Source of the DNA: Bifidobacterium breve
GTDB lineage: Bacteria > Actinomycetota > Thermoleophilia > Miltoncostaeales > Miltoncostaeaceae
Direction: 5' to 3'
DNA: 45,844 bases
Assembly (NCBI GenBank): GCA_945861935.1
Contig: CAMAVU010000001.1
Location: 1-45,844, forward strand
Below the pieces are notes generated by a model. The model did not search any database. It was not told the origin of the DNA and saw only the letters and a program-made list of their open reading frames with translations. The translations under genes and the position numbers were made by a program. Shown here in pieces: positions 9,496 to 13,784 of this stretch (the first letter of the stretch is position 1; the number at the start of each line of letters is the position of its first letter).

Positions 9496-9630
9496 CTAGG
9501 CGGAGAGCCGCGCGCGGCCCTTCGCGCGCCGGCGCTTGATAACTGCACGGCCGGCAGCAGTGGACATGCGCTTGCGGAAGCCATGCGTTTTGCTGCGCTT
9601 CCGCGTGTTCGGCTGATAGGTGCGCTTCAC
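9496..9630 (-). CDS. rpmH: 50S ribosomal protein L34
   Basis: 44 residues, [20 protein letters not shown] then [23 protein letters not shown], which is full-length L34. The start is the GTG at 9630, ten bases after AAGGAG (minus strand, 9646-9641). It is the first gene of the leftward origin operon leading to rnpA, yidD, yidC, khpB, rsmG, parA and parB. Confidence 0.97.
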
Positions 9631-9821: not shown

Positions 9822-9958
9822 TTCTCCACATCTGTGGACATCCCTGTGGATAACCGTATGTTCCTCCTGCTCCTGACGATATCCGCACCGCGGCGGCGGG
9901 GCGTGCTGTGGCGGACGCAGACCATTTTTCCCGCTCGCACGGCCCTCGTTCATCCACA
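9822..9958. promoter_or_regulatory. DnaA-box cluster I (left half of a probable bipartite oriC)
   Basis: Nine-base DnaA boxes: TTCTCCACA 9822-9830, TGTGGACAT 9833-9841, the perfect TGTGGATAA 9845-9853 and TCATCCACA 9950-9958. The region from 9631 to 10012 has no gene; the rest of it holds the rpmH promoter and, at 9996-10001, a TAGCGT box 11 bases before the GHKL gene. Boxes here could serve origin function, dnaA autoregulation, or both. Confidence 0.75.
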
Positions 9959-10012
9959 GGCCCTCTCTGCCGCCCGTCGGGCCATCGCCCATTGGTAGCG
10001 TTCCGCGCCCCG

Positions 10013-10741
10013 ATGAACCCCGAACCAGCCGACAGCCTCTCGGACGCCGAGCTGCGCGGCACCACGTATGTGGTGCGCGTGGCGGTACATCGGGCGGCCC
10101 TGGAGCCCCCGGCCATCACCGAGATCCGCGACATCGCGCCCGCGGCGATCATCGAATCCACCTTCTCCCATGTGGCCCGGATCTCGTCTGTTCCGCCCCT
10201 CGCGCTGCGCGAGGTGATCGAGAACCTCATCCACGCAGGCTTTCGCGACGCACTGGTGACCGTTCTCGACGCCGGGCGGACGGTACGGGTGTCCGACAGG
10301 GGCCCCGGTATTTCCGACCCACGCCGGGCCATGGAGCCGGGTTACACCACGGCCGACGAGTCCATCCGCGCGGTGGTGCGCGGCGCCGGCTCGGGCCTGC
10401 CGCTGGCGTCCGGGATCGTCGCGGCCGAAGGCGGCCTGCTCGAGGTGGAGGACAACCTCGGTGGTGGGACCGTCGTGACGCTCACGGTGGACGGGCCCCC
10501 GGCGCCGGACCTGCCCGGCGAGCCCGGCGCACCAAACGACGCCCAGCGACGCCTGCTCGCCCTGCTGCTCGAGATGGCACCCGCCCACCCCGAGACGATG
10601 GCCCGCGAACTGGGGCTGCCCCTCGGCCTCGTCGGCCGGGAGCTCGTGCTCCTGGAACACCGCGGATTCGTCGCCCGGTTCGCCGACGGCGGCAGGGTTC
10701 TCACCGAGCGCGGCGCGGCGATCGTCGCGACGCTCTTCTAG
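10013..10741 (+). CDS. GHKL ATPase with C-terminal winged helix, linked to dnaA
   Basis: 242 residues. A GHKL-type ATP-binding fold is visible: N box [13 protein letters not shown] (about 65-77), D-x-G-x-G motif VSDRGPGI (93-100), glycine lid [13 protein letters not shown] (124-136) and GGGTVVTL (150-157). A Pro-rich linker leads to a helix-turn-helix region, [31 protein letters not shown] (193-223), with the wing GGRVLTERG. There is no phospho-acceptor histidine domain, so it is not a standard sensor kinase; it resembles anti-sigma/GHKL proteins joined to a DNA-binding module. It ends three bases before the dnaA ATG and begins 54 bases after a DnaA box. A role in setting DnaA activity or transcription is inference. 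Confidence 0.72.
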
Positions 10742-10744
10742 ACC

Positions 10745-12163
10745 ATGGGCGCGTCCATCCCCATCGCCCGTGACCCGGCCCACCTCGAGGCGATGTGGCA
10801 GCAGGTGCTCGAGCGCCTGCATGGCGCACTGAACACGGCCACGTACAGCCTGACCTTCGAGCGGGCGCGTGCGCTCGGGCTCGATGACGGCTGCTTCCGG
10901 ATCGGGGTTGAGACCGAGTTCGCGCGGGCATGGATCGTCCAGCGGTACGACTCCCTGGTCCGGGACGCCCTGTTCGAGGTCATCGGCCGTGACGTCTCTG
11001 TGGGCGTCGAGGTCGTCGCGCCCGGGCCTGCTGCTGCCCAGCCGCCGGGGCGCTGGTCGCCCCCCGCGCCGCCGGCCAGGGCCGCCGCGCCGCCGCCTTC
11101 CGCGGCGCCAACGGACCCCGCGGCACGCTTGCAGTCGCGCTTCACCTTCGACGCCTTCGTGATCGGGCCCAGCAATCGTTTTGCTCACGCTGCTGCCCTG
11201 GCCGTCGCCGAGACGCCCGCGCGTGCCTACAACCCCTTGTTCATCTATGGCGGCGTGGGGCTGGGTAAGACCCACCTGCTGCACGCCATCGGGCACTACA
11301 CCGCCGAGAACCACCCCGGGCTCTCTGTCCGGTATGTCTCGGTGGAGACATTCACCAACGAGTTCATCAATGCGCTTCGCGACGGCGGCATCCGCACGTT
11401 CAAGGACCGTTACCGATCCACGGACATCCTCCTCATCGACGACATCCAGATGCTCGAGGGCCGCGAGCAGACGCAGGAGGAGTTCTTCCACACCTTCAAC
11501 GCGCTGCAGGAACATGGCAAGCAGATCGTCATCTCCAGTGACCGGCCGCCGAGCGCGATCAAGACCCTCGGGGACCGGCTCCGCTCGCGTTTCGAAATGG
11601 GCCTGATCACCGATGTCCAGCCGCCGGCCCTGGAGCTCCGCATCGCGATCCTGCGCAAGCGCGTGCAGACCGACGGCTATCAGATCCGCGATTCCGAGGC
11701 GCTCTCGTTCATCGCCGCCCGCGTCTCCACCAACGTCCGGCAACTTGAGGGCGCGCTGATCAGGGTGGTCGCCCACTCCTCCATCTCGGGACGCCCGGTG
11801 ACGGCGGATCTGGCGCGGGAGGTTCTGGCCGACCTGTTCCCGGGCGACGTCGGTGAGCTGCGGATCGACCTCATCCAGGAGGCGGTCGCCCGGCACTACT
11901 CGGTGTCACTCGACGACCTCATCGGAGAGAAGCGCACCAAGCGCGTGGTGGTTCCCCGGCAGGTCGCGATGTACCTGGCCCGCGAGCTCACCGACTCCTC
12001 GCTGCCTGCCATCGGCCGTGCCTTCGGGGGTCGCGACCACACGACCGTCCTCTACGCGGTGCAGAAGATGACCAACCAGATGGCCGAGGGGGGCCCGGTG
12101 TACGAGGCCATCGAATCCCTCACCCGCTCCCTCACGGGCGCCGCAGCCCTCCCGCAGATCTAG
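10745..12163 (+). CDS. dnaA: Chromosomal replication initiator DnaA
   Basis: 472 residues. Domain I (about 1-90, [17 protein letters not shown]) and a Pro/Ala-rich domain II (about 92-127) precede the AAA+ domain. That domain has [25 protein letters not shown], Walker [10 protein letters not shown] (169-177), Walker [11 protein letters not shown] and sensor ISSDRPP. Domain IV ends with the DnaA signature [16 protein letters not shown]. It binds DnaA boxes and opens the origin. Box clusters lie both upstream (9.8-9.96 kb) and downstream (12.35-12.57 kb). The ATG is three bases after the stop of the GHKL gene, so it is probably translated from the same message. Confidence 0.98.
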
Positions 12164-12350: not shown

Positions 12351-12617
12351 TGTGGACGGAACCCGGGCGGCGCTGTGGACAACCTGTGGAGAGTCCACGT
12401 GGATCCCCTGGGTCCATCCACACCCGTCCCGGCTCCCATCCCCGCGCCGCTTTTTGCTGTGGACGGCTGTTTGTGGGTGCCCGTGTTCTCCCGGCGTTCC
12501 CACAGGTCGTCCACAGGGGAGAAATGTCGCCTCTCGCGGCGAAGACCGGCATCTATCCACGCCATCCACAGGCCCTATCACTACGACGACGATCTACTGA
12601 TCCATTGTTTTAACATC
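12351..12617. promoter_or_regulatory. oriC: DnaA-box cluster II and AT-rich unwinding segment
   Basis: The 517-bp dnaA-dnaN gap has no gene. Boxes close to TTATCCACA on either strand are TGTGGACGG 12351, TGTGGACAA 12374, TGTGGAGAG 12385, CCATCCACA 12414, TGTGGACGG 12458, GTTCCCACA 12496, TCGTCCACA 12507, CTATCCACG 12553 and CCATCCACA 12562. Next to the last pair, 12571-12617 is clearly richer in A+T (CTACTGATCCATTGTTTTAA) and is the best candidate for the unwinding element. Bases 12164-12350 are GC-rich with nothing recognised. Confidence 0.85.
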
Positions 12618-12668: not shown

Positions 12669-12674
12669 TACGCT
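12669..12674 (+). promoter_or_regulatory. -10 box (TACGCT) of a leaderless-type dnaN promoter
   Basis: TACGCT ends 6 bases before the GTG of dnaN at 12681, with GCCGCC between and no ribosome-binding site, as in other leaderless-looking starts in this window. Confidence 0.45.
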
Positions 12675-12680
12675 GCCGCC

Positions 12681-13784
12681 GTGCGCCTGACCTGCCCCCG
12701 TGACGAACTCGCGAGCCGCCTGGCAGTGGCGTCAAGGGCTGCGTCCAGCAAGGGAACCATCCCGATTCTCGCGAACGTGCTATTGCGCGCCGAGGAGGGA
12801 GTCGTCGAGCTCTCCGCGACCGACACGGAGGTGTCGCTGCGCGTGCCGCTGGAGGACGCCGGCGTCGAGGAGCACGGCGCGGTGGTGCTGCCCCGCCTGG
12901 TGACGGACCTCGTACGCAGCATGGCACCAGGTCCCGTCTCCATCACGCACAACCAGAACGAGGGCCAGGTGCAGGTGTCGGGGGGAGGGTCGTCCTTCAG
13001 CCTGAACTGCCATCAGGCCAATGAGTACCCCGACCTCCCCGCCGACGGCGGCCTGGGCATCGAGATCCCGGCGAGCCGCTTCTTGATCTGCGCGGAGAAG
13101 GTCGTGCGGGCCGCATCGCGCGACGAGACCCGCCCGGTGTTGACAGGGGTGTTCGTACGGCTGGGACCGGACGGCCTGACGATGGCCGCCACCGACAGCT
13201 ACCGGCTGGCCGTTCGCTCGACCGCGCTCGACAACCCACCGGCCGACACGCGGGAGGCCATCCTCCCGGCGCGCGCTGTCGCGGAGGCCGCGCGCCTGGT
13301 GGCGCAGTCACAGAACGGCATGGTGGACCTCGCCCTCGGCGAGCACCAGGCGGGCGTGCGGTGCGGAGGCGTGCGCCTCACCACGCGCGTCATCGACGGG
13401 CAGTTCCCCGACTACCGGCAACTCATCCCCGCGGAGTTCGACCACGACGTCCGCCTCGACCGTGCCGAGTTCCTCGCGGTCCTGACACGCGTCGGCGTGC
13501 TGGCCCAGCGAACCTCACCACTCCGGCTGTCATTCGAGCAGGGCCAGGTCACCGTTGCCACGGCCAGCGACCAGGTGGGAGAAGGCCGCGAGTCGCTGCC
13601 GGCGCCGTACTCGGGCGAGCCTCTGGAGATCGGCTTCAACGCGGACTTCCTCCGCGAGGGCGTGGAGGGGATCGAGGGCGACGAGGTGAGGCTGGGGCTC
13701 ATCAGCCCGCTGCGCCCCGGACTGCTCACGGGTGGGTCCGACGACCACCGGTATCTCCTCATGCCGATCCGGCTGCCCGGGTAG
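12681..13784 (+). CDS. dnaN: DNA polymerase III sliding clamp (beta subunit)
   Basis: 367 residues with three clamp repeats. VRLTCPRDELASRLAVASRAASSKGTIPILANVLL is the first; TRPVLTGVFVRLGPDGLTMAATDSYRLAV falls in the second. The end DDHRYLLMPIRLPG has the conserved Y-x-x-M-P-x-(R/K) tail. The ring-shaped dimer tethers polymerase III to DNA. The frame is open far upstream through oriC, but homology begins at the GTG at 12681, which lies behind a TACGCT box, so I use that start. recF follows after seven bases. Confidence 0.96.
   Translation: MRLTCPRDELASRLAVASRAASSKGTIPILANVLLRAEEGVVELSATDTEVSLRVPLEDAGVEEHGAVVLPRLVTDLVRSMAPGPVSITHNQNEGQVQVSGGGSSFSLNCHQANEYPDLPADGGLGIEIPASRFLICAEKVVRAASRDETRPVLTGVFVRLGPDGLTMAATDSYRLAVRSTALDNPPADTREAILPARAVAEAARLVAQSQNGMVDLALGEHQAGVRCGGVRLTTRVIDGQFPDYRQLIPAEFDHDVRLDRAEFLAVLTRVGVLAQRTSPLRLSFEQGQVTVATASDQVGEGRESLPAPYSGEPLEIGFNADFLREGVEGIEGDEVRLGLISPLRPGLLTGGSDDHRYLLMPIRLPG

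Follow-up and report, generated by a model that had tools for sequence, protein, structure and literature searches.

To our knowledge, DnaA regulators have been characterised in detail in a small number of model bacteria, and most of them do not extend to other phyla. Known regulators of DnaA and oriC are YabA, SirA, Soj and Spo0A as well as Hda (PMC5295017), and in Staphylococcus aureus WalKR acts in the gap between dnaA and rpmH (PMC10746227). The origin of B. subtilis is bipartite and arranged around dnaA (PMC5295017). We analysed a stretch of 45,844 nucleotides, referred to as the window, whose origin is likewise bipartite but has an extra gene inside it. This gene encodes a GHKL ATPase fused to a winged helix (GHKL-WH) and its product may, like the regulators named above, act on DnaA or on dnaA/oriC DNA. 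However, none of these regulators is a GHKL-winged-helix protein or is described in the two papers as encoded between rpmH and dnaA, and the word GHKL is absent from the review of DnaA regulators (PMC5295017). Within the open-licence literature we found no paper on such a gene between rpmH and dnaA.

For the protein itself, several described systems can be compared. Architectures that join a GHKL ATPase to a winged helix are already known. In Corynebacterium diphtheriae, DIP2311 (PDB 3lmm) is a predicted regulator with these two domains, which we take to be of the AlbA_2/HATPase_c_4/wHTH type. The HATPase_c domains of the histidine kinases HK853, ZraS and Sporulation kinase B have the Bergerat fold with N, G1, F-like and G2 boxes. 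SpoIIAB shows the pattern E-x-x-x-N, and the ATP-hydrolysing GHKL proteins GyrB and MutL carry a glutamate at position N-4.

The gene and its product

The features of the window that we refer to are the following:

9496-9630, minus strand: rpmH, the divergent neighbour upstream
9822-9958, no strand assigned: upstream DnaA-box cluster with boxes at 9822 (+), 9845 (-) and 9950 (+), the first half of the bipartite origin
9925-9934, plus strand: TTTTTCCCGC motif, conserved, not a DnaA box, adjoining the box at 9950; a degenerate second copy lies near 9860-9874
9992-10001, plus strand: invariant core TTGGTAGCGT just ahead of the start codon, from an alignment of 13 genus members
10013-10741, plus strand: GHKL ATPase-winged-helix gene, which encodes 242 aa and opens the dnaA operon
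10202-10492, plus strand: HATPase_c (Bergerat) domain, residues 64-160, Pfam E 3.9e-9, box residues unchanged or almost unchanged across 103 sequences
10517-10738, plus strand: C-terminal winged helix, residues 169-242, with R209 in the recognition helix and R228 in the wing, placed by Pfam (DprA_WH), fold and conservation
10745-12163, plus strand: dnaA, immediately downstream of the GHKL-WH gene
12374-12570, no strand assigned: second DnaA-box cluster in the gap between dnaA and dnaN, with one box at 1 mismatch and six at up to 2

The preliminary description had read positions 10013-10741 as a real open reading frame, and the frame is indeed intact over its 242 codons. Its TAG stop codon occupies 10739-10741 and the ATG of dnaA begins at 10745, which leaves 3 bp between the two genes. 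We compared pN/pS for both genes in the same pairs of genomes, using genus members with about 0.5 synonymous differences per site, and obtained 0.17-0.27 for the GHKL-WH gene and 0.19-0.28 for dnaA. Purifying selection on the GHKL-WH gene is as strong as that on dnaA. These low, dnaA-like values identify GHKL-WH as a functional gene and rule out a chance ORF. A 648-aa open frame on the minus strand (9950-11896), which runs antisense to the GHKL-WH gene and dnaA, is a spurious ORF driven by the GC content.

The window protein matches two Pfam families above their curated cut-offs, HATPase_c and, over residues 170-226, DprA_WH (E 2.6e-5, 24.6 bits versus a cut-off of 22.9). The HATPase_c domain contains an N box (E67/N71/H74), a G1 box (D95-x-G97-P98-G99), the F-box-like PGYTTA (109-114) and a G2 box (G124-x-G126-x-G128). 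In a diverse alignment HATPase_c was matched in 25/25 members, and at the C-terminus of these 25 members winged-helix DNA-binding families recur (DprA_WH, HVO_A0261_N, TrmB, MarR and others). The AlphaFold2 model (pLDDT 84.9, pTM 0.70, 21-row alignment) shows residues 1-15 with low confidence, followed by the GHKL domain and the C-terminal winged helix, and the first 60 residues consist largely of strands, with a single helix. A GHKL fold with a winged helix and without a phospho-acceptor domain had been predicted beforehand; the profile search returned a strong GHKL match, both folds were recovered by Pfam and by fold comparison, and HisKA and DHp domains were absent among the Pfam families listed for the window protein at E up to 10. 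In the Coriobacteriia homologues (L094-L108) the ATPase is joined to the winged helix by a long low-complexity linker rich in P, Q, G and Y, as if the winged helix were a tethered module. The open frames of these homologues reach about 490 aa and a linker of this length is absent from most other classes.

We counted residue conservation across 103 non-redundant sequences from three phyla. N71, H74, D95, G97, P98, G99, G110, G124, G126, G128, G141 and G152 are unchanged in 103/103, and E67, which lies four residues ahead of the Mg-binding Asn, is a glutamate in 102/103. Of the two winged-helix arginines, R209 (recognition helix) is kept in 100/103 and R228 (wing) in 97/103. Thus the ATP site is complete and the putative DNA-contact face is conserved. 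Judging from these residues, the GHKL-WH protein would be expected to bind and hydrolyse ATP.

Comparison with known families

The best PDB sequence matches of the window protein are histidine-kinase HATPase_c domains (Sporulation kinase B, 1.7e-8), with which it shares the fold and the boxes. In contrast to the histidine kinases, the window protein has no DHp domain or phospho-acceptor histidine, ends in a winged helix, is soluble and is tied to dnaA. Membership of the sensor histidine kinases was rejected for lack of a HisKA-type match among the families listed (E up to 10). We also rejected the SpoIIAB/RsbW anti-sigma kinases (TIGR01925, 21.9 bits versus a cut-off of 135) and MutL; TIGR00585 reached 15.8 bits versus a cut-off of 180 in a homologue from the third phylum described below and was absent among the matches listed for the window protein. 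The GHKL-WH protein would work like the histidine kinases or SpoIIAB but is a member of neither.

The best fold match of the model is DIP2311, with a Z of 15.0 across residues 15-161 (GHKL domain). The two proteins are, however, only 14% identical, and DIP2311 is much longer, has an extra N-terminal part and has no known tie to dnaA. Membership of the DIP2311 type was rejected because the window protein has only about 60 residues ahead of its ATPase core and because AlbA_2 and HATPase_c_4 were absent among the listed Pfam matches. Residues 169-242 superpose on the winged helices of MarR, CggR and Csa3 (Z 12-14, ~13), but those carry ligand or CARF domains and not a GHKL ATPase. Distant homologues match CRISPR regulators (CasR/Csa3/CARF) only via the winged helix, and a defence role was rejected since PADLOC gave no match for the window protein. 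The PDB holds no close relative of the window protein, NCBIfam gave only sub-threshold histidine-kinase matches with no curated family near its cut-off, and no match in PDB, Pfam or NCBIfam names a GHKL-WH family. As far as we can tell, a GHKL-winged-helix family that is locked to dnaA in three phyla is undescribed.

Distribution and inheritance

The closest relatives belong to the Miltoncostaeales/Thermoleophilia, and the gene is present with unchanged neighbours in the genus and family of the window. A phylum-wide profile search detected it in 157/396 sampled genomes of Actinomycetota (about 40%), with one copy each. In the Coriobacteriia, the class of Eggerthella, 86/99 genomes carry one copy of the gene, or 84/90 if only those of good quality are counted. 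The complete genomes with the gene include Eggerthella lenta (3,632,260 bp), Atopobium parvulum (1,543,805 bp) and Cryptobacterium curtum (1,617,804 bp), and in all three it sits at one extremity of the record, where the origin lies. In the Bacillota, the phylum of Bacillus, the gene occurs as a single copy in 31/299 sampled genomes (about 10%), and one class within this phylum has it in 15/17. The third phylum is a small group that was reached from a record titled Armatimonadetes; here 38/43 genomes have a single copy. All five genomes of this group without the gene likewise gave no match to dnaA (E 1e-60), so the origin region is probably missing from these assemblies. The gene was found in 0/189 Pseudomonadota-type and 0/79 Verrucomicrobiota-type genomes by a search that had no positive control in these groups. 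Plasmids and phages gave no matches and an origin from either was rejected. Five families of the window's class and many Bacillota lack the gene; its absence from such large sister groups indicates that initiation as such can proceed without it.

The order rpmH (divergent), DnaA boxes, GHKL-WH and dnaA (same strand as GHKL-WH) was observed in every locus with sufficient contig. In the loci without a visible dnaA the contig or stretch stops within a few hundred bases. The proposed coupling to dnaA therefore held in every locus that reaches far enough, with dnaA directly downstream, and tabulating the neighbourhoods placed homologues only at dnaA throughout the three phyla. The preliminary description had also called the intergenic region upstream of dnaA normally gene-free. 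This is correct for genomes without the gene, 14 of which have a gene-free gap of 110-583 bp with no room for it, but not for the carrier lineages, where the distance from rpmH to dnaA is 1016-2730 bp. Thus the loss (or gain) of the gene was clean. The entire neighbourhood (jag, yidC, rnpA, rpmH, dnaA, dnaN, recF) is syntenic across the loci. As it is rigid as a whole, the place alone is no proof of a replication role, and adjacency to dnaA supports a shared function less strongly than it seems to.

The pairwise distances of GHKL-WH and DnaA are correlated (r 0.69), with a maximum of 0.11 after shuffling. The two trees largely agree; they have 51/100 splits in common (37 of the supported ones) and show 5 supported conflicts. 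The gene is old, and these results fit mostly vertical co-inheritance with an origin before the phyla split, or an early transfer of the whole locus. A Miltoncostaeales-type locus was also seen in CAMCDF010000004.1 and CAMCOB010000014.1, both titled Bifidobacterium breve, and in JAGWYY010000028.1, titled Acidobacteria bacterium (loci L034, L043 and L035), at 79-85% protein identity. These three records look misnamed.

Layout of the origin

We defined a DnaA box as a match to TTATCCACA with at most 1 mismatch. The 383 bp from rpmH to the GHKL-WH gene contain 3 boxes compared to 0.003 in shuffles, whereas there are none within the GHKL-WH gene and none within dnaA of the window. Together with the cluster in the dnaA-dnaN gap, the boxes at 9822, 9845 and 9950 agree with the earlier suggestion that two clusters frame the gene. 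Of 97 distinct loci, 95 carry one or more boxes upstream of the GHKL-WH gene, and the density is 5.5 per kb in the upstream interval compared to only 0.34 per kb within the gene.

The invariant upstream blocks in 13 genus members are the DnaA boxes, the adjoining TTTTTCCCGC-type motif and TTGGTAGCGT; in the upstream DnaA-box cluster, TCCACA-nn-TGTGGA and TGTGGATAA blocks are invariant in the same members. A TANNNT-type -10 candidate, TAGCGT, is located at 9996-10001, 11 nt from the ATG. The TTGGTAGCGT region is likely a near-leaderless promoter of the GHKL-WH-dnaA operon.

Possible functions

As a conserved, single-copy, ATP-binding and probably DNA-binding protein encoded beside dnaA, GHKL-WH is a candidate regulator of the time of chromosome copying. 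The reading that we favour, and to which we give roughly an even chance, is a DNA-binding regulator of dnaA/oriC that is controlled by its ATP state. The protein and DnaA would share one message, and the protein would act on the surrounding oriC/dnaA region. Its GHKL domain would bind ATP and, with complete N, G1 and G2 boxes and the N-4 glutamate, probably hydrolyse it slowly. The nucleotide state would then alter lid closure and self-association, and the altered state could change how tightly the C-terminal winged helix binds sites in the operon promoter and among the DnaA boxes. In this way the energy state of the cell might be coupled to the expression of dnaA, to the assembly of DnaA at the origin, or to both. 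More tentatively, and with somewhat less than even confidence, we suggest that ATP-gated GHKL-winged-helix proteins co-made with DnaA form an undescribed, phylum-spanning class of replication regulators that sets initiation at bipartite origins in deep-branching Actinomycetota, several Bacillota lineages and the third phylum.

There are several other possible roles. DnaA itself could be the target of the protein, whose GHKL domain would serve as a clamp or chaperone driven by ATP in loading, disassembling or inhibiting DnaA, with the winged helix only as a tether to the origin or to DnaA. We consider this unlikely: co-translation with dnaA (3 bp in the genus) and the N-4 glutamate, as in ATP-hydrolysing GHKL proteins, are consistent with it, but the distance correlation with DnaA, which exceeds the shuffled maximum and would also suit such a role, is expected from shared ancestry alone, and the conserved arginines of the recognition helix and wing favour DNA contact. 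The synteny of the whole neighbourhood and the clean absence of the gene from many relatives would both be explained by an ancient general transcription regulator or stress sensor that is unrelated to replication and stands beside dnaA only since this neighbourhood rarely rearranges. Such a regulator is improbable, however, as the gene is never away from dnaA in three phyla and lies on the dnaA side, within the operon of dnaA and with DnaA boxes on both flanks. It seems very improbable that GHKL-WH is a protein kinase, either of histidine-kinase or of SpoIIAB type, with a substrate partner provided in trans. Although the HATPase_c domain is nearest in sequence to histidine kinases and has E-x-x-x-N as in SpoIIAB, no DHp/HisKA domain was listed, the SpoIIAB profile scored far below its cut-off, the winged helix is unlike either kinase class and the operon has no partner gene.

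Returning to the favoured ATP-controlled regulator of dnaA/oriC, the gene stays locked to dnaA across three phyla or more, and its carriers include the gut and oral bacteria E. lenta, A. parvulum and C. curtum. It combines dnaA-like selection with no assigned function in the sources that we searched. Should the protein act on oriC and sense ATP, energy state and initiation would be directly linked. Otherwise, the gene is still a good target for studying the control of these origins because of its age and fixed place.

Search for an operator

The TTTTTCCCGC motif is conserved in the window's family and limited to it. There is one copy in the 1.6 Mb genome of the window, and the reversed control also occurs once. 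A looser form, TTTTYCCYGC, is located ahead of dnaA in two relatives without the GHKL-WH gene (L162, L164). We therefore rejected TTTTTCCCGC as the protein's own site; the motif is not tied to the GHKL-WH protein and no operator is established. It is perhaps a general origin element. Several gene-lacking Thermoleophilia (L155-L162) have in common a CCTGCAAA..TTTTCC-like element upstream of dnaA, which is possibly related to the TTTTCCC(T/C)GCTCA motif of the window's family.

A k-mer enrichment over the upstream intervals of 78 dissimilar loci did not reveal an operator common to the clades. The enriched k-mers CTTGACAC and ATTATAGC were rejected because they belong to the rpmH promoter, whose consensus is TTGACA/TATAAT and which is usually found 10-140 bp from rpmH. 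This promoter is near-perfect in most of the 78 loci, in Actinomycetota as well as Bacillota, but not in the high-GC family of the window.

Two further elements were noticed on the dnaN side. TACGCT precedes the GTG of dnaN by six bases (12670-12683) and is conserved in the genus, and dnaN looks leaderless, like the GHKL-dnaA promoter. The stretch ACTACGACGACGATCTACTGATCC (12576-12605) follows a DnaA-box-like site and resembles DnaA-trio repeats, and this region is likely the unwinding site.
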